Shown: positions 1,396-35,990 of the stretch, piece by piece
Layout: every line of letters begins with the position of its first letter
Numbering within the stretch: the first letter of the stretch is position 1
IMG/VR virus record: IMGVR_UViG_3300023108_001641
Coordinates: 1 to 47,775 of that record
Origin: a virus
Direction: 5' to 3' (one strand)
DNA length: 47,775 nt
Translations under genes and position numbers: made by a program
Notes under the pieces: model-generated
Told to the model about the DNA's origin: nothing
Databases searched by the model: none
The model's input: the letters and a program-made list of their open reading frames with translations, nothing else

Positions 1396-2217
1396 TTACT
1401 TTTTATCTAATGCGGCAATCATTCTAGTCATTCCAATTCCTCCACCTACTCTTGGGAAGAAGTCGAATTCCAAGAACTTTTCTAGTTCTGCTTCTACACG
1501 TTCTTTTGAAAACAATTTGTAAAGTAGTTCACTGTATTCGCCGTTTGTAATAGTATGAAATGTATCTCTCATCATTTCCACATCACAACTACGTTCTGCT
1601 GATCCTATAGTTTCCATACCACCTAAGATAACATCAATTTTTTTAGAATGTACTCCATCTTCGTATCTGCTCATATTCCAGAACGGTGATGTCATTTCAG
1701 GAAAGTCTGTGATCATTGTTGAACCAAACTCATCATACATTTTAGTTTCTTCTTCAGCAGTCATTTCATAATCTTCTGCAAGTCCGTAATGCTTCTGCCA
1801 TTCTTTGTATGTCTTTTCTGTAGGCTTAGGAAATCCTAAGTATTCACAGAGTTCATATTCCATCTTTTTAAGATCGTTTATGTCACCTGGCATTTCAAAT
1901 TCAAACATTGGAAATATTATATCATGTCTGCCTGGAATTGCATTAGGCTCTTGTCTGTAGGAAGTGGAGACACAAAAAAACCCCTTACTAGAGGGGCTAC
2001 TTAATAATTCGTGTTCTAACCACATTTGGCCTGTTTGCGGCAACGGCCACACCTGGCCTGCGTAATTATAAGTTGCTACATTGAATGGATCTTCACATGC
2101 GGCAAGTATGCTTAGTCTGTTTTGAGTGTGTACTTCTTCAAAACCTTTATCCAAAAAAAATGACCTTAAAAGGCCAACTGTTTTTGTAAATTTACTTGGG
2201 GATATTAATTGCGTCAT
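1396..2217 (-). CDS. AsnRS/AspRS-like class II synthetase core without anticodon-binding domain (possible asparagine synthetase or tRNA ligase)
   Basis: The 273-residue protein is a class IIb aminoacyl-tRNA synthetase catalytic core. Motif 2 is seen in STSYRQEPNAIPGRHD followed by FPMFEFEM, and motif 3 in VGGGIGMTRMIAAL at the C-terminus; the class-defining arginines are present. The N-terminal OB-fold that reads the anticodon in AsnRS and AspRS is absent, since the protein begins straight in the catalytic region. Known AsnRS paralogues of this shape include archaeal asparagine synthetases that make Asn from Asp, so aminoacylation cannot be assumed. The gene lies between two tRNAs with odd variable arms, one with an Asn anticodon. 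It carries a terminator-like hairpin inside its reading frame (1974-1996). The ATG at 2217 has only a weak purine-rich leader. Confidence 0.8.
   Translation of the reverse strand: MTQLISPSKFTKTVGLLRSFFLDKGFEEVHTQNRLSILAACEDPFNVATYNYAGQVWPLPQTGQMWLEHELLSSPSSKGFFCVSTSYRQEPNAIPGRHDIIFPMFEFEMPGDINDLKKMEYELCEYLGFPKPTEKTYKEWQKHYGLAEDYEMTAEEETKMYDEFGSTMITDFPEMTSPFWNMSRYEDGVHSKKIDVILGGMETIGSAERSCDVEMMRDTFHTITNGEYSELLYKLFSKERVEAELEKFLEFDFFPRVGGGIGMTRMIAALDKK
1974..1996 (-). terminator. Terminator-like hairpin inside the AsnRS-like gene
   Basis: On the minus strand CCCCT, a short loop and AGGGG are followed by seven Ts, the form of an intrinsic terminator, but it lies about 75 codons into the AsnRS-like frame. 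It could shorten a share of transcripts. Confidence 0.5.
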
Positions 2218-2642: not shown

Positions 2643-2717
2643 TGGCACCGGTGGAAGGAATCGAACCCTCTCTTTCAGTTTTGGAGACTGCTGTGCAACC
2701 ATTGACACCTCACCGAT
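2643..2717 (-). tRNA. tRNA-Trp (CCA)
   Basis: Acceptor ATCGGTG/CACCGGT, G73, encoded CCA, anticodon loop CTCCAAA with CCA at 2682-2684, T loop TTCGATT. It is the first tRNA of the five-gene cluster and begins one base after the T run of the upstream terminator. Confidence 0.9.
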
Positions 2718-4205: not shown

Positions 4206-4289
4206 TGGTGCCCATGGAGGGACTCGAACCCCCACGCCGTAAGCACAGGTACCTAAAACCTGCGTGTCTACCAATTCCACCACATGGGC
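4206..4289 (-). tRNA. tRNA-Leu (TAG)
   Basis: Acceptor GCCCATG/CATGGGC, A73, encoded CCA, anticodon stem CAGGT/ACCTG with loop TTTAGGT, anticodon TAG at 4253-4255, and a normal class II variable arm. It starts one base inside the stop of the 62-residue protein gene. Confidence 0.93.
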
Positions 4290-4477
4290 TATGTAGAAGT
4301 TGAACCAACTGGTTTACATTGATACTGTACTGTATCCCAATCTCCATCAGCTGGTAGTTCGGTATAAATTTTTAACATTTTGTTACATTCATCTTTTGTA
4401 TCAAACCATTGTATATCTTGTTCAAGACAAGTTGATCCTAAACAAACAGTAAGTAAAATGTGCCAAATGATTTCCAT
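4289..4477 (-). CDS. Small exported Cys-containing protein, 62 aa
   Basis: The N-terminus is hydrophobic (IIWHILLTVCLGS), consistent with a signal peptide or anchor, and the rest holds four cysteines in all, with a central DTKDECNKMLK segment. It resembles small periplasmic proteins encoded by marine T4-like phages, including the 56-residue protein at 32833-33003, which shares the plan of a short leader, ETC/DEC motif and terminal cysteine. Function unknown. Its stop overlaps tRNA-Leu by one base. Confidence 0.6.
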   Translation of the reverse strand: MEIIWHILLTVCLGSTCLEQDIQWFDTKDECNKMLKIYTELPADGDWDTVQYQCKPVGSTST

Positions 4478-4490
4478 GTCACTTCCTTAA

Positions 4491-4566
4491 TGGTGCCGGC
4501 ACACGGACTCGAACCGCGGACCTACTGATTACAAATCAGTTGCTCTACCAACTGAGCTATGCCGGC
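4491..4566 (-). tRNA. tRNA-Thr (TGT)
   Basis: Acceptor GCCGGCA/TGCCGGC, A73, encoded CCA, standard D arm, anticodon stem ACTGA/TCAGT with loop TTTGTAA, anticodon TGT at 4531-4533. Confidence 0.94.
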
Positions 4567-5022: not shown

Positions 5023-5330
5023 TTTGTGCTCCTAACAATACTGACAGTGCCGCCACCTTCTACCTTTGTGACTCTGTCATATTTAAAACTACGCCAACCT
5101 TTGGCGTTTAGATCCCAAGCTGTAATAGTACCTTTCTTAGGCGCTTTTTCGTTCTTGGGTCTGCTCTCTTCCGGAATATTCTCAATGTTTTTTGTACATG
5201 TCATAACACGTTCATCTCCATCGAGCTTGTTAAATGTTACAATTAAAACTCCTGTGCTAAGAATTTCAAGTAACTTTTCTTCCGTAGGAATATTTTTAAG
5301 ATCTGCTACGCTGTCTTTTACAATGTTCAT
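5019..5330 (-). CDS. Small SH3-like phage protein (DUF2693-like), 103 aa
   Basis: The pattern [12 protein letters not shown] in the first half and [16 protein letters not shown] near residue 80 matches a small beta-barrel family widespread in T4-like phages (I associate it with DUF2693). No catalytic residues are evident and its role is unknown. It overlaps the clpP stop codon by four bases and the glycine-zipper start by four bases, so it is part of the same operon. Confidence 0.6.
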
Positions 5331-5917
5331 TTTGCTTTCTCAACAATGCTGTCTGCTAGTCCATAATCGATTGCTTCTTGTGCTGACATGAATGTATCTC
5401 TGTCCATGTCCCTTTCAAAGTCTTCGAATGTTTTACCTGCTGTATTGTGTTTTACATAAAGCTCTGTCAGTTGCTTTTTCCAATACATAATTTCTCTGTA
5501 ACTAATTTCAATATCACTTGCCATACCTCTAGCACCGCCACTTGGTTGATGAATCATGTGTCGTGCATTAGGAAGTAAAAACCGTTTGCCTGGTTCACCT
5601 GCTTGTGCTAAGAAACTACCCATTGAACATGCTTGTCCTAAAACATATGTATGAACAGGTGCTTTGATAAATTGCATAGTATCATAAATGCTCATGCCAG
5701 CAGTAATTACACCGCCTGGAGAATTAATAAAAAACTTAATTGACTTTTCAGGATTTTGTGATTCTAAAAACAATAATTGTGCAACAATTAAGTTTGCACT
5801 ATTATCTTCAACAACACCGTTAAGCATAACGATGCGATCCTTCATCAAGCGTGAATAGATATCATAAGAACGTTCTCCGCGTGATTCTTGTTCTACTACC
5901 ATTGGTATAAGTGGCAT
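5327..5917 (-). CDS. clpP: ClpP protease subunit
   Basis: The 196 residues cover the full ClpP fold. The catalytic Ser98 lies in QACSMGSF, His123 in [10 protein letters not shown], and the Asp in the ERDMDRD segment near residue 172; the oxyanion region FFINSPGG is intact. It should assemble with a host ClpX or ClpA, since no unfoldase is seen here. The short N-terminus ([10 protein letters not shown]) matches processed bacterial ClpP. With ClpS (20768-21079) and tmRNA (35640-35930) also phage-borne, it may redirect host proteolysis. TAATG overlap with the small gene upstream indicates coupled translation. Confidence 0.95.
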
Positions 5918-19523: not shown

Positions 19524-19541
19524 GTTAAGTAGCTACTTAAC
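19524..19541. repeat. Perfect 18-bp palindrome at the end of the bilin reductase gene
   Basis: GTTAAGTAGCTACTTAAC is self-complementary and spans the stop codon of the bilin reductase gene. There is no T run on either side, so it is not a plain terminator. It could protect the 3' end of the message or bind a protein. Confidence 0.5.
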
Positions 19542-20226
19542 TATTAATTTTAGGAAAAAGCATGTCTGTGCAAAATTTATCTACATCTTCTTCTGGTAGT
19601 CCTAGGCTTTTCATTACTCTAGGTGTATGCGGATTTTGTTGCTGGTTATGACAGTAGTAGTCTTGACACGCTTGTACAATATCAGGTTGCCCTTCACCAT
19701 CTGTAGCACCTACTTCATCAAAGTATGCTCTTAGATTTGATACAGCAATTCTAATAATTTCATCTGCTTCTTCGTCAGACTTTACATTACCTGCCGCAAG
19801 CATTTTCTCAGTAAATATATTACGTGCCCATTCAGGCAATTCACGTTGCTTCTCAGGAACAAAATGTTCTACACTTTCAAAATAGCCTTGTATCATTGGA
19901 TGATCAGGATCAGCACTTGCACTAAAATCATGAAATGCTCCAGTCATTTTATTCTTACCAGCAATAACATCAAAGCCGTAAATAGGTGCTGGATTGTGTA
20001 ATTGTGGAAATATACATACGTGCATCATCCATAAGCCTTTGCTATCTCTAGCATCAACTACATCAATATGCGCTCGACGTATAGAACTATTGCTCCAAAC
20101 CCTATTAATCCAACCACCATCAGGACGGTTGAAATAATCAAGTCCAGGTTCTGAGAACTCTTTAGCGTTTTCATTAAATATTTCAATAATTTCATCTTTA
20201 CAATTTATTAATTTTTCCCAAATCAC
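19537..20226 (-). CDS. pcyX: Ferredoxin-dependent bilin reductase, PcyX/PebS-like
   Basis: The 229-residue protein has the bilin reductase core: AHIDVVDARDSKGLWMMHV, then PIYGFDVIAGKNKMTGAFHD with the conserved Asp100, and a C-terminal QACQDYYCHNQQQN followed by FCTDMLFP, with the second catalytic-type Asp near 187. It is the size of phage PebS. It directly follows heme oxygenase with a four-base overlap. In work on oceanic phages such pairs make phycoerythrobilin from biliverdin in a four-electron reduction, and the type called PcyX was assigned to phages of non-cyanobacterial hosts. PcyX versus PebS cannot be settled by eye, and why a host without phycobilisomes would need a bilin is unknown. 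Confidence 0.82.
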   Translation of the reverse strand: MIWEKLINCKDEIIEIFNENAKEFSEPGLDYFNRPDGGWINRVWSNSSIRRAHIDVVDARDSKGLWMMHVCIFPQLHNPAPIYGFDVIAGKNKMTGAFHDFSASADPDHPMIQGYFESVEHFVPEKQRELPEWARNIFTEKMLAAGNVKSDEEADEIIRIAVSNLRAYFDEVGATDGEGQPDIVQACQDYYCHNQQQNPHTPRVMKSLGLPEEDVDKFCTDMLFPKINS

Positions 20227-21125: not shown

Positions 21126-21596
21126 TTACTTCTCAGATACGTTACCTTCAATTGTTTTGCCTGCGTTGATTTCAATCTTCTTAGGCTTTAACGCTTCAGG
21201 TATCTCTCTGATTAGATGAATGTTAAGCATTCCGTTTTTAAGTTCTGCTGATTTCACTTCTACGTGATCTGCAAGTGTGAACTCTCTACGGAAATTACGT
21301 CCGCCAATACCTTTGTGTAGGTAGTTGACTTTGTCTTCACCTTTTGGAGTAGTTCCTTCAACCTTTAAAATATTACTATCTTTTGTAATATCAAGATTGT
21401 CCATACCAAAACCAGCTACAGCGAGTGAAACCATAAATTCGTTTCCGTCCTCGTCAAGTTTAGCTATATTGTATGGTGGGTAACCCTGGGTATTTACACT
21501 GTTCTCAAACAGTCTGTCCATTTCATCGAACATTCTGTCGAATCCAACCATGTGTCTATGTAGTGGGGTTAAGTCTAGAGTTGTTAGTCTTGTCAT
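21126..21596 (-). CDS. Small heat-shock protein Hsp20 (IbpA-like)
   Basis: The alpha-crystallin domain covers about residues 40-135: YNIAKLDEDGNEFMVSLAVAGF, IGGRNFRREFTLADHVEVK and LKNGMLNIHLIREIPEA, followed by the conserved C-terminal KPKKIEI tail. It is the length of IbpA. T4-like marine phages often carry one; it may hold phage structural proteins in a foldable state. TAAAGGAG precedes the ATG. It has both an early and a late promoter (21685-21715) and a structured leader of about 90 bases. Confidence 0.95.
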   Translation of the reverse strand: MTRLTTLDLTPLHRHMVGFDRMFDEMDRLFENSVNTQGYPPYNIAKLDEDGNEFMVSLAVAGFGMDNLDITKDSNILKVEGTTPKGEDKVNYLHKGIGGRNFRREFTLADHVEVKSAELKNGMLNIHLIREIPEALKPKKIEINAGKTIEGNVSEK

Positions 21597-21684: not shown

Positions 21685-21715
21685 TATTTATACAATATTT
21701 ACAACAATTTGTCAA
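21685..21715 (-). promoter_or_regulatory. Combined early and late promoter of hsp20
   Basis: TTGACA (21710-21715), 17 bases, then TATAAATA (21685-21692). The same TATAAA serves as a sigma70 -10 element and as the core of an exact T4 late promoter, so expression may run through the whole infection. Confidence 0.7.
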
Positions 21716-21737: not shown

Positions 21738-22886
21738 TTATTTTGCATAAACATCGTTAAATTGTTGTGTACAGCGTACAAAAGTAGTACAACGCATCAA
21801 ATGTTTAAGTCTTTGTGCGCCTGCATATGTGCAAGTGCTACGCAAACCACCTAAAATGTCCTGTATTGTAACAGCTACATCTCCTCTATATGGTACAAAC
21901 ACTTCACGACCTTCTGAACTACGGTATTCTTTTAATCCTCCAAAGTGCTTGTCATTTGCGGCTTTACTACTCATACCATAGAATTGCACAAACTTCTTTT
22001 CTTCTACAATAGGTGTGTAATTATCTTTGCTTGGGATTTCACCATTCATGCCATCGTCAAACTCTTTAGTAAATTCACCTGTTTGATAATATCTTGTAAC
22101 TACTTCACCACCGCCTTGATCATGCCCAGCAAGCATCCCGCCAAGCATAACAAAATCTGCTCCACCTGCAAAGGCTTTAGCGACATCTCCAGGGCAAGTA
22201 CACCCGCCGTCAGCAATAACGTGACCCCCAAGTCCATGGGCGGCATCTGCACATTCGATGACTGCTGATAACTGCGGATATCCAACACCAGTTTGTATGC
22301 GAGTAGTGCAAACACTCCCGGGACCAATGCCCACTTTAACAATATCGGCTCCACTTAATATTAACTCCTCTGTCATTTCACCTGTAACAACATTGCCAGC
22401 TATTATTACAATGTTAGGATACAGGTTTCTAAATTCTCTTACAAATGCAACAAATCGTTCTGAGTAACCATTTGCAACATCAATACACACATAACGTAAT
22501 TTCTCACCTACTTGCTCGTAAACATTTCTAAATTTTATATGATCACTATCAGTGATGCCTATACTCATTGCAACATATTTTGTACGTTCTGGGTTATCAT
22601 TATCAAAGTAATCTACAAGTTCATTGACTGAATATGTTTTAACTAGGCAGGTAAAAATATTTCCTGTAGCTAGATGATCAGCCATTTCAAACGTACCAAC
22701 TCCGTCCATGTTACTAGCCATAATAGGCACGCCTCGATAGTGTCTAAAGTTTTCTTTTTGACCTTTGTAGTTACGGAATGTAAATCCTCTTGACAAATCA
22801 ACCTGTTGTCTTGAACCTAATGTACTACGCTTAGGTCTGATCAAAACATCTTTGTAATCTAATTTTACATCTTCTTCAAGTCTCAT
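21738..22886 (-). CDS. guaC: GMP reductase (IMPDH/GMPR family)
   Basis: The 382-residue barrel protein has the family start [15 protein letters not shown], the loop [18 protein letters not shown] with the catalytic Cys, the glycine motif [13 protein letters not shown] and the phosphate motif [12 protein letters not shown]. The later [11 protein letters not shown] followed by VPYRGDV favours GMP reductase over IMP dehydrogenase, and no CBS domains are inserted. The enzyme deaminates GMP to IMP with NADPH, shifting purine pools toward adenine nucleotides, which would suit an AT-rich phage genome. It is a little longer than bacterial GuaC, with about 20 extra C-terminal residues. It follows the 2OG oxygenase with no gap. 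Confidence 0.88.
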
Positions 22887-33966: not shown

Positions 33967-35571
33967 TCAAAAACTAGACGAAATCATAAATTTTAATGAA
34001 CGTCCATCTTGACTAAATCCGTGCGGTGACTCGTACTGCTCGTTAAGTACATTTGCCATTGTAACACCTAGATTAATTCCGTAATAGTTTTTGCTAAAAC
34101 TTAAATCTAATAGATGTAATTCTGGCATATTAATTGTAGTCCAATTTGAATTGTGTATATCTAAATGTTTGCCTTTGTATTTGTAGTTGGTAGTAATATT
34201 ATATGAATCTATTTCTAAATTATGTAATAGTCCTAAATTATAATTAGGACGTCTAAGAGACTTTATGTCAAACTTTTCACTGTCTATGTAACTAGCAAAA
34301 AGTTTTAGATTTTTTTGATTGTAGCTTAATTCTATTCCTTGGTTGTTGAGGTCACCGATATCAGATTGAAAAAATGTAGAAGTAAAGTTTTTGTAATCTA
34401 AACTTATTTCTTGTGTATTACTGTGTTCTTTATCTGTCCATGTTGTAGCATTTTTATATCCTGTTGAATGATTGCCACGTAATGTAAAATCTTTTATAGG
34501 TTGTATGAATCCTATCTTGTAGGTACTTGCATCTTCATCTAGTCTGTAGTGATAAGAAAATATATCGTAACTAAAATTTCCATATAAACCTATGTTATGG
34601 TATTTGTTGGTTTTAGATTCATCATGTTTGTAATCAAATCCTAATCCCCAATTATCTTTTTTGTGTTCACCTTTTATCATATAGCTGTTGCTTTGATAAT
34701 GTGCATCATCATACTGTCTATCATATTCGTGTGTATGTAAAGTAAGTGTAGTAGTTCCTAGTTTATTATAATAATCTAAGCCTGTTTGAAATGCGTAAAA
34801 AGTATTGTCAGCCCATTTGCCTTCTTGTATATCTAAACTATGTCCGTCTATTTCTGCAAAAGTATTTCTAGCAAAAAAACTATTACGCCAATGTAAATTA
34901 TAGTCAAACCATTTGCTTGTGTTTATTCCTATGTTCTTTGCTTCTACACCATCTTTTTCTTCTGCGCCTGCAAGTGCTGACTGTGTTTCAGATTCGTGTA
35001 CACCTCCTGAAAAACTTATATCCCAGTCATTGTATGTTTTCACATAATAGTTTCCGCTTACAGTGTTAGGATCAGCTTTAACTTTATTTTGATAATCAAC
35101 TGTTGTTATAAAATTAATAGCACCGCCTATTGCATCTGCACCAAAATGTGCTCCTGCACTTCCTTTGTAGACATCAATTTGGTAAACATTAAACATAAAG
35201 TCTTGTCCTATATCAAATGCACCTGTTGGTGTAGAGAAATCATTTATAGGAATACCGTTTAACAAAACTTGTGTATGATTGCTGTTAGATCCTCTTAGGA
35301 ATATTGATGCTTGTTGCCCAGTAGTTCCAGATTGTGCTACATCAACTCCTTGTACAAAGTTAAGCACACTTGGTAAGTCTACTAGGTTGTGTTTTTCTAT
35401 TTCAGTTTTAGATATAACATACGAAGGAGAAATTGCATCTCCTGTAAGATTACTATTACCTAACGGTATAGTTAGATGTAGACAAGGAGGATCATCATTC
35501 CAACTACAAGTTTCATCATTAGCAATTACTGATGTAGTAAGTAATAATAAAATTAAAAGACTCCTTAGCAT
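33967..35571 (-). CDS. TonB-dependent outer-membrane receptor (BtuB-like)
   Basis: A signal peptide ends at SVIA. The plug domain is clear: LVDLPSVLNFVQGVDVAQSG, SIFLRGSNSNHTQVLLNGIP and VYKGSAGAHFGADAIGGAIN, as in BtuB and other vitamin B12-type receptors. The barrel follows and ends in a terminal Phe (LKFMISSSF). At 534 residues it is shorter than Escherichia coli BtuB. A TonB box near the N-terminus is not obvious. The -10 element is so near the ATG that the message has almost no leader. A phage-made receptor could import nutrients, or mask or replace host receptors against superinfection. Confidence 0.88.
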   Translation of the reverse strand: MLRSLLILLLLTTSVIANDETCSWNDDPPCLHLTIPLGNSNLTGDAISPSYVISKTEIEKHNLVDLPSVLNFVQGVDVAQSGTTGQQASIFLRGSNSNHTQVLLNGIPINDFSTPTGAFDIGQDFMFNVYQIDVYKGSAGAHFGADAIGGAINFITTVDYQNKVKADPNTVSGNYYVKTYNDWDISFSGGVHESETQSALAGAEEKDGVEAKNIGINTSKWFDYNLHWRNSFFARNTFAEIDGHSLDIQEGKWADNTFYAFQTGLDYYNKLGTTTLTLHTHEYDRQYDDAHYQSNSYMIKGEHKKDNWGLGFDYKHDESKTNKYHNIGLYGNFSYDIFSYHYRLDEDASTYKIGFIQPIKDFTLRGNHSTGYKNATTWTDKEHSNTQEISLDYKNFTSTFFQSDIGDLNNQGIELSYNQKNLKLFASYIDSEKFDIKSLRRPNYNLGLLHNLEIDSYNITTNYKYKGKHLDIHNSNWTTINMPELHLLDLSFSKNYYGINLGVTMANVLNEQYESPHGFSQDGRSLKFMISSSF

Positions 35572-35609: not shown

Positions 35610-35610
35610 G

Positions 35611-35633
35611 AAAAAAGCAACTTTTCTGTTGCC
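35611..35633 (-). terminator. Intrinsic terminator of the tmRNA gene
   Basis: GCAAC, a six-base loop and GTTGC, followed on the minus strand by six Ts. Confidence 0.8.
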
Positions 35634-35639
35634 AGGTAA

Positions 35640-35930
35640 GTTGCCAACCCCGTTAGCCTAATCTAGGCCGCCATTGCCATTTCTGGCGCATAATTGTCGT
35701 TTGCAATTATAAAGTTTGACCAATAACGCAGTCATCCGGTTAACTCCACTTCACTTCCTACACTCGTCGATCCTAGTTCAGGCCCATCATAAGCACATGA
35801 CTTGCAACCTCTCGGTCCTTGTCCTATGCACAGGAAAGCAGGTGCATCTACTCTCATGTGTTTATGGTGGACCTGCGCGGTACTGCCCCGCGGTCCGATA
35901 TGTGTCCATGTTGCTTCAACATTAACAGTT
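35640..35930 (-). ncRNA. ssrA: Circularly permuted two-piece tmRNA
   Basis: Read on the minus strand, the acceptor piece comes first: a T-arm CGCGG-GGCAGTA-CCGCG and the acceptor end GGTCC followed by ACCA (CCA at 35865-35867). After an intervening loop of about 46 bases the coding piece starts near 35818 with GGACC, which pairs with GGTCC. The tag frame runs from 35704 to 35663: resume codon GCA, then a 13-residue tag ANDNYAPEMAMAA and a TAG stop. Acceptor piece before coding piece is the permuted arrangement known from alphaproteobacteria. tmRNA frees stalled ribosomes and tags products for ClpXP. No smpB is seen in the window. A late promoter (35931-35938) and terminator bound the gene. 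Confidence 0.9.
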
Positions 35931-35938
35931 TATTTATA
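35931..35938 (-). promoter_or_regulatory. T4-type late promoter of the tmRNA gene (TATAAATA, exact)
   Basis: Exact late consensus on the minus strand immediately upstream of the tmRNA acceptor piece, pointing to late expression. Confidence 0.7.
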
Positions 35939-35947
35939 ACAGAAGAG

Positions 35948-35982
35948 AAAAGGTTTGTCAACCATTAATTAACAAACCTTTT
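35948..35982. terminator. Bidirectional terminator between the Hc1-like gene and tmRNA
   Basis: AAAAGGTTTGT and ACAAACCTTTT form an 11-pair stem whose outer A/T pairs provide a T run in either direction. Confidence 0.8.
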
Positions 35983-35990
35983 CAGAAAAA

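Follow-up and report, generated by a model that had tools for sequence, protein, structure and literature searches.

Why a phage should carry its own tmRNA is the question raised by this locus, and the family to which it belongs offers three testable handles on the answer: the promoter of the RNA, a phage ClpP, and protein genes nested within the tmRNA gene. The sequence under study is the IMG/VR virus record IMGVR_UViG_3300023108_001641, all 47,775 bases of which are referred to here as the window. Phage-encoded permuted tmRNA is already known, and the window is not a first case: a 2022 count found 402 phages with tmRNA, with 53 unique structures in two pieces, mostly marine (PMC9004378), and a 2025 database paper counts 79 phage tmRNAs (PMC11915505).

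The window encodes a complete permuted tmRNA

The minus strand of the window carries a complete circularly permuted, two-piece, alpha-type tmRNA gene, as an initial annotation made from the sequence had proposed. The Rfam alpha_tmRNA model (RF01849), against which that annotation had suggested searching, matches positions 35614-35965 with 125.3 bits (cut-off 50; E 7e-34; model positions 1-355), and tmRNA_permuted (RF04321) matches 35663-35926 with 118.3 bits (cut-off 47; model positions 1-213). Both minus-strand matches are well over the curated cut-off and span the full model, and ARAGORN agrees, calling a permuted tmRNA with the tag ANDNYAPEMAMAA. The locus comprises the following features:

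35947..35983, minus strand: terminator-like hairpin of the upstream gene, overlapping the tmRNA -35 box (terminator scan)
~35865..35925, minus strand: tmRNA acceptor piece, with T arm CGCGG-GGCAGTA-CCGCG, acceptor 3' strand CAGGTCC and encoded ACCA (Rfam RF01849/RF04321, sequence)
35786..35864, minus strand: intervening segment (IVS) of 79 nt, whose ends pair as a clamp stem, with a structured tip (sequence, relatives)
35663..35785, minus strand: tmRNA coding piece, 5' part to the stop codon, with acceptor 5' strand GGGCCTG (G3-U70) (Rfam, sequence)
35663..35704, minus strand: tag reading frame ANDNYAPEMAMAA plus stop; codons 35704-35666, TAG 35665-35663 (ARAGORN, sequence)
35616..35662, minus strand: 3' part of the coding piece, with a hairpin overlapping the stop and a GGCAAC...GTTGC stem doubling as terminator (Rfam, sequence)
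35610..35633, minus strand: terminator-like hairpin (35633-35616) and T run (T6) at the tmRNA 3' end (terminator scan, sequence)

The acceptor piece precedes the coding piece, and together they form a 7-bp acceptor stem, GGGCCUG (35785-35779) with CAGGUCC (35875-35869), which includes the alanine-identity pair G3-U70. The acceptor piece ends in an encoded CCA at 35865. The initial annotation had read the piece order, strand and CCA correctly, along with the flanking terminators (hairpins at 35983-35947 and 35633-35616) and the complete tag frame, which is intact in both the ARAGORN call and the sequence. It had mis-assigned the acceptor pairing to GGACC/GGTCC: GGACC (35896-35892) corresponds to the conserved GGAC that precedes the T stem and is not the acceptor strand. 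An Ala resume codon is present, and the short tag frame, GCA...GCGGCCTAG, ends in AA followed by a stop. The tag of the window ends in MAA instead of LAA, which may weaken its recognition by ClpX. No SmpB was seen among the genes tested in the window fragment.

A composite promoter upstream of the tmRNA

Relatives were collected in two pattern scans of viral contigs, which yielded at least 133 parsed permuted tmRNA loci, at least about 108 of them distinct; because the sample derives from pattern scans, frequencies within it are not population estimates. Comparison with these relatives bears on the promoter, which has two elements:

35956..35961, minus strand: -35 box TTGACA, 17 nt upstream of TATAAATA (sequence; same spacing in relatives)
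35931..35938, minus strand: TATAAATA, -10 element or T4-late-type octamer (sequence, relatives)

The locus had been described as an independent late unit with an exact T4 late promoter. The octamer is exact, but its frequency in the window is that of chance (7 sites, 6.0 expected), and TTGACA stands 17 nt upstream. Measured against a sigma-70 promoter (TTGACA, 16-18 nt, TATAAT), the -35 box matches at 6/6 positions with 17-nt spacing and the -10 element, TATAAA, at 5/6; TATAAATA lacks the final T of the -10 preferred by sigma-70, and a promoter scan tool missed this promoter because it demands a T at that position. Only two of the seven octamer sites in the window have a -35 box, those of the tmRNA and at 21692, and the site directly before a tail-spike-like gene (42274) has none. 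The second composite promoter, TTGACA-N17-TATAAATA (21715-21685, minus strand), is upstream of an ORF at 21126-21596.

The octamer recurs in 72 of the 107 listed relatives having sufficient upstream sequence, and this, with its exactness, would suit a strictly late unit that only the phage late sigma factor reads, at TATAAATA. Such a unit is nonetheless unlikely. Most octamer-bearing relatives conserve TTGACA/T at 17 nt: 56 of the 72 match TTGACA at five or more of the six positions at exactly this spacing, 42 of them perfectly. Information per -35 position is ~0.7-1.2 bits, versus 0.03-0.7 (mostly below 0.5) elsewhere upstream in the listed relatives, and the 17-nt spacer shows no sequence conservation. 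Where the octamer is missing, several relatives instead have promoters of the ordinary sigma-70-like kind (TTGACA...TATAAT), and the octamer on its own occurs in the window no more often than chance would place it.

The T4 late sigma factor requires no -35 box, and late transcription needs phage gp55, gp33 and the clamp. Given a conserved -35 box that a late sigma factor would not need, transcription early in infection or throughout it is no less likely than late transcription. The likeliest reading is that a sigma-70 -35 box is joined to a T4-late-type -10 element in a promoter that acts both early and late, from which we infer early, possibly continued, transcription of the tmRNA. The consensus -35 box, its optimal spacing and its conservation leave the independent late unit unsupported, and the promoter provides a prediction for the timing of tmRNA synthesis.

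A phage ClpP accompanies the tmRNA

The same genome encodes a ClpP:

5327..5917, minus strand: phage ClpP (Pfam E 2e-76; NCBIfam PRK00277 298.6 bits, cut-off 249; PDB match)

In the PDB alignment the Ser and His motifs are present as expected, together with the Asp region. ClpP is the class of peptidase that degrades tmRNA-tagged proteins in bacteria, and a true ClpP in a tmRNA-encoding phage suggests a tag-and-degrade route that is assisted, or run, by the phage.

The phage RNA might instead be a decoy or regulator that ties up SmpB, AlaRS or ribosomes, blocking host rescue without tagging; a tag-less mycobacteriophage tmRNA-like RNA is reported, in work cited in PMC11915505, to inhibit host tmRNA. 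We regard this as quite improbable for the present family: a decoy has no need of a tag, whereas nearly all listed relatives retain the tag frame with its AA end, and the phage carries ClpP. Tag length varies among relatives. The permuted tmRNA of L164 (genome G009) has a tag of 22 residues, ANRKALGFADLTVGMSKMRLAA; alongside it, this genome carries a second tmRNA, of bacterial type. In other relatives tags reach 30 residues.

The RNA fold is conserved by compensatory changes

Acceptor pairs 1, 2, 3 and 7 are invariant, with G3-U in 108/108 distinct listed relatives, and pairs 4-6 covary in the same set, with changes in both strands. A clamp of ten pairs joins the two IVS ends, with 94% of cells paired and 4-6 pair types at most positions in the listed relatives; with the clamp register slid by 1-2 nt as a control, only 34-63% are paired. 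As the clamp extends the acceptor stem, the precursor would fold like an extended tRNA hairpin.

That the gene is a decaying host tmRNA copy, acquired by chance and with its function lost, is highly improbable: its 125-bit Rfam score is below the typical bacterial 200-310 bits and its tag ends in MAA in place of LAA, but all acceptor pairs, G3-U70, the T arm, CCA and tag frame are intact, promoter and terminator are retained as well, and 108 divergent listed phage relatives keep these features with compensatory changes, a covariation that largely refutes decay.

The IVS of relatives as a probable slot for small protein genes

In relatives, the IVS appears to be a closed, covarying stem with a gene slot at its tip, an arrangement that appears to be new: we found no report of small protein genes in a tmRNA IVS slot among open PMC papers. 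The listed phage loci have IVSs of 25-266 nt, and those of 74 bacterial loci span 3-103 nt (median near 27, mostly <60), none with an ORF. A 23-aa sORF of S. meliloti, considered as a known bacterial IVS ORF, merely reads into the tag.

ORFs were assessed by shuffling the IVS middle with dinucleotides kept and the clamp ends fixed. An ORF fills the IVS in all 23 distinct listed loci with an IVS of at least 150 nt (all p<=0.034, 19 at p<=0.02), and 17 of those 19 ORFs have a Shine-Dalgarno sequence. Among listed loci with an IVS of 100-150 nt, 7/20 reach p<=0.02; at 60-100 nt, 0/44 have a significant filling ORF. Stops recur at two sites, a TGA in the clamp TTATGAT or a TAG in the coding-piece AACTAGGATCGA. 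All 13 long-IVS loci tested with Rfam score above cut-off as tmRNA and are therefore not broken genes. On the tmRNA sequence tree the long-IVS state changes 20 times, and well-supported branches force at least 11 gains or losses.

The cargo proteins belong to over a dozen families, between which no similarity was detected, and several resemble single-pass membrane proteins. One family is DUF6356 (E 3e-12); nine other cargo proteins tested matched nothing in Pfam or PHROGs at E<=0.001. Most within-family pairs have dN/dS of ~0.07-0.24 with changes concentrated at third positions, by which measure the cargo ORFs are under purifying selection. Homologues of the cargo occur elsewhere in other phages as ordinary, free-standing genes. 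A Blast search with the cargo-bearing tmRNA of L264, on another branch, found no isolate, and the cargo proteins of L170 and L081 had no match in phage isolates. The cultured phage Melnitz has an IVS ORF (MFKWLSKTRLVVITRDYFRERNRKADAKIPKYLSG...) of 54 codons, 41 of them inside the IVS, with p=0.008 and a Shine-Dalgarno sequence; its annotation lists no CDS under the tmRNA.

The set was gathered by pattern from metagenomic contigs and some frames in shorter IVSs fall short of significance, as would be expected of chance open frames or assembly artefacts, yet for the long IVS ORFs this origin is extremely unlikely in view of the shuffle test, the Shine-Dalgarno sites, the dN/dS values, the recurrence in independent contigs, the homologues that are ordinary genes, and the ORF of Melnitz.

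Nested genes of this kind would place protein coding in the excised part of a structural RNA gene, so that RNA processing and translation compete on one transcript. At some loci the Shine-Dalgarno sequence is inside the clamp stem, and there folding and translation could compete. As the nested genes are absent from annotation even in Melnitz, phage tmRNA loci should be re-annotated.

The window has an empty slot and a free-standing cargo gene

The IVS of the window has an open frame (MRVDAPAFLC...), which we rejected as a gene (p=0.29, no Shine-Dalgarno sequence); since this IVS lacks a convincing ORF, the proposal of cargo rests on the relatives. Its sequence is shared with phages L186 and L245 with pair-preserving changes, and it looks like a structured spacer. 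A gene of one cargo family, which we call MEIIWHILL, stands elsewhere in the window:

4491..4566, minus strand: tRNA-Thr(TGT), upstream of the MEIIWHILL gene (ARAGORN, Rfam)
4289..4477, minus strand: free-standing 62-aa MEIIWHILL-family gene (homologues inside the IVS of relatives)
4206..4289, minus strand: tRNA-Leu(TAG), whose first base doubles as the final base of the MEIIWHILL gene's TAG stop (ARAGORN, sequence)

Members of this family are found inside the IVS of L016, L053, L262, L246 and L211. The window gene exactly fills the gap from the tRNA-Thr CCA to the tRNA-Leu 5' end, in the layout ...CACCA TTAAGGAAGTGAC ATG ... TAG, and the IVS of L246 reads CACCA TAAGGACATTGAT ATG. Both RNA contexts share one layout, in which a CCA end is followed by a ribosome-binding site, an ORF and a stop placed where the next RNase P site lies. 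In L016 (5547-6238), a tmRNA with an IVS gene is itself flanked by two tRNA genes.

We consider it likely that the IVS of marine-phage permuted tmRNAs is a general gene slot, that a strong composite promoter drives a precursor serving both as source of the rescue RNA and as a small mRNA, and that cargo moves between the IVS and gaps in tRNA clusters as modules of CCA, Shine-Dalgarno sequence, ORF and stop at an RNase P site. The window would then represent an empty slot with its cargo between tRNA-Thr and tRNA-Leu.

Proposed mechanism

As a whole, the locus is best explained as a working phage permuted tmRNA with a composite promoter, IVS processing, tagging and, in relatives, a cargo slot, a reading we hold to be very likely. 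By analogy with established tmRNA biology, host RNA polymerase, perhaps with the phage late polymerase too, would make one precursor from the composite promoter, ending at the hairpin that doubles as the tmRNA 3' domain. The two pieces would form the acceptor stem in this precursor, lengthened by the clamp of the IVS ends. RNase P would cut at G35785 and 3' trimming would proceed to the encoded CCA at 35865, removing the IVS and leaving the pieces joined through base pairing. Host AlaRS would charge the tmRNA via G3-U70; with host SmpB, it would enter stalled ribosomes and append (A)ANDNYAPEMAMAA, and ClpXP, for which the phage supplies its own ClpP, would degrade the product. In relatives, the small selected genes at the tip of the IVS hairpin would be translated from the precursor or from the excised fragment; in the window that slot is empty, with a cargo gene of the same family between two tRNA genes instead.

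Other genes of the window

A full-length BtuB-like TonB-dependent receptor (33967-35571, minus strand; Plug E 2e-19, signal peptide, C-terminal Phe) has its own perfect sigma-70 promoter (35609-35581). It is a phage-borne outer-membrane transporter conserved in 31 viral contigs; one pelagiphage receptor of the BtuB-like TonB-dependent class has been mentioned (PMC10504331). Near a tRNA cluster, a 273-aa protein (1396-2217, minus strand) matches class II aminoacyl-tRNA synthetases (Pfam D/K/N family, E 7e-17) and also a PHROG of unknown function. A seventh tRNA (2646-2717, minus strand) was found by Rfam and missed by ARAGORN. The window further encodes a ferredoxin-dependent bilin reductase-like protein (19537-20226, minus strand; PHROG ferredoxin oxidoreductase, PcyA model below cut-off) and a GMP reductase (21738-22886, minus strand; NCBIfam 525 bits, cut-off 397).

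The host question and comparison with known systems

The initial annotation had taken the tmRNA type to point to the host, an argument that fails on Melnitz, the isolate nearest to the window tmRNA in the phage collection: it has a two-piece, alpha-type permuted tmRNA yet infects OM43 (PMC9004378), which is outside the Alphaproteobacteria. The type of tmRNA is therefore unreliable as a host marker. In 385 alphaproteobacterial genomes, the window tmRNA DNA had no host tmRNA match of useful length except in one MAG contig. This contig and the IMG/VR contig of L043 are both 29,883 bp and share sequence, so it is probably mis-binned phage DNA. Genomes of one related order have tags such as ANDNEMALAA. 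Phage-type tmRNAs also occur in MAG contigs named Neomarinimicrobiota and Rickettsiales (L088, 2056-2400; L094/L140), which are probably mis-binned phage DNA too.

The window RNA resembles Caulobacter ssrA and RF01849 in its acceptor-IVS-coding order, G3-U70, GGCAGTA-type T loop, ANDN.. tag and 3' stem ACCUGGCAACAGAA, but lacks much of the 3' helix region of the model. It differs from alphaproteobacterial tmRNA in its phage promoter, its MAA tag end and its 79-nt IVS, bacterial IVSs being mostly shorter than 60 nt.

With Melnitz and with Mosig, a Pelagibacter phage that infects SAR11 and has SsrA annotated, the window shares the occurrence of a permuted tmRNA in the genome of a marine myophage. 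Melnitz also has the same composite promoter and, directly adjoining its tmRNA, a homologue of the window MEIIWHILL gene. It differs in a glutamine riboswitch just 3' of the tmRNA (confirmed by our search), none being detected beside the window tmRNA even at a lax threshold, and in its 142-nt IVS, which holds an ORF whereas that of the window does not.

The closest parallel to the nested genes is in tmRNA genes with group I introns, self-splicing elements in the T loop that carry homing-endonuclease ORFs (PMC11915505). In both cases a protein gene is nested in a removed part of a tmRNA gene; here, however, that part is the IVS of permuted genes, its removal would be by tRNA processing, and its cargo consists of many unrelated small proteins.
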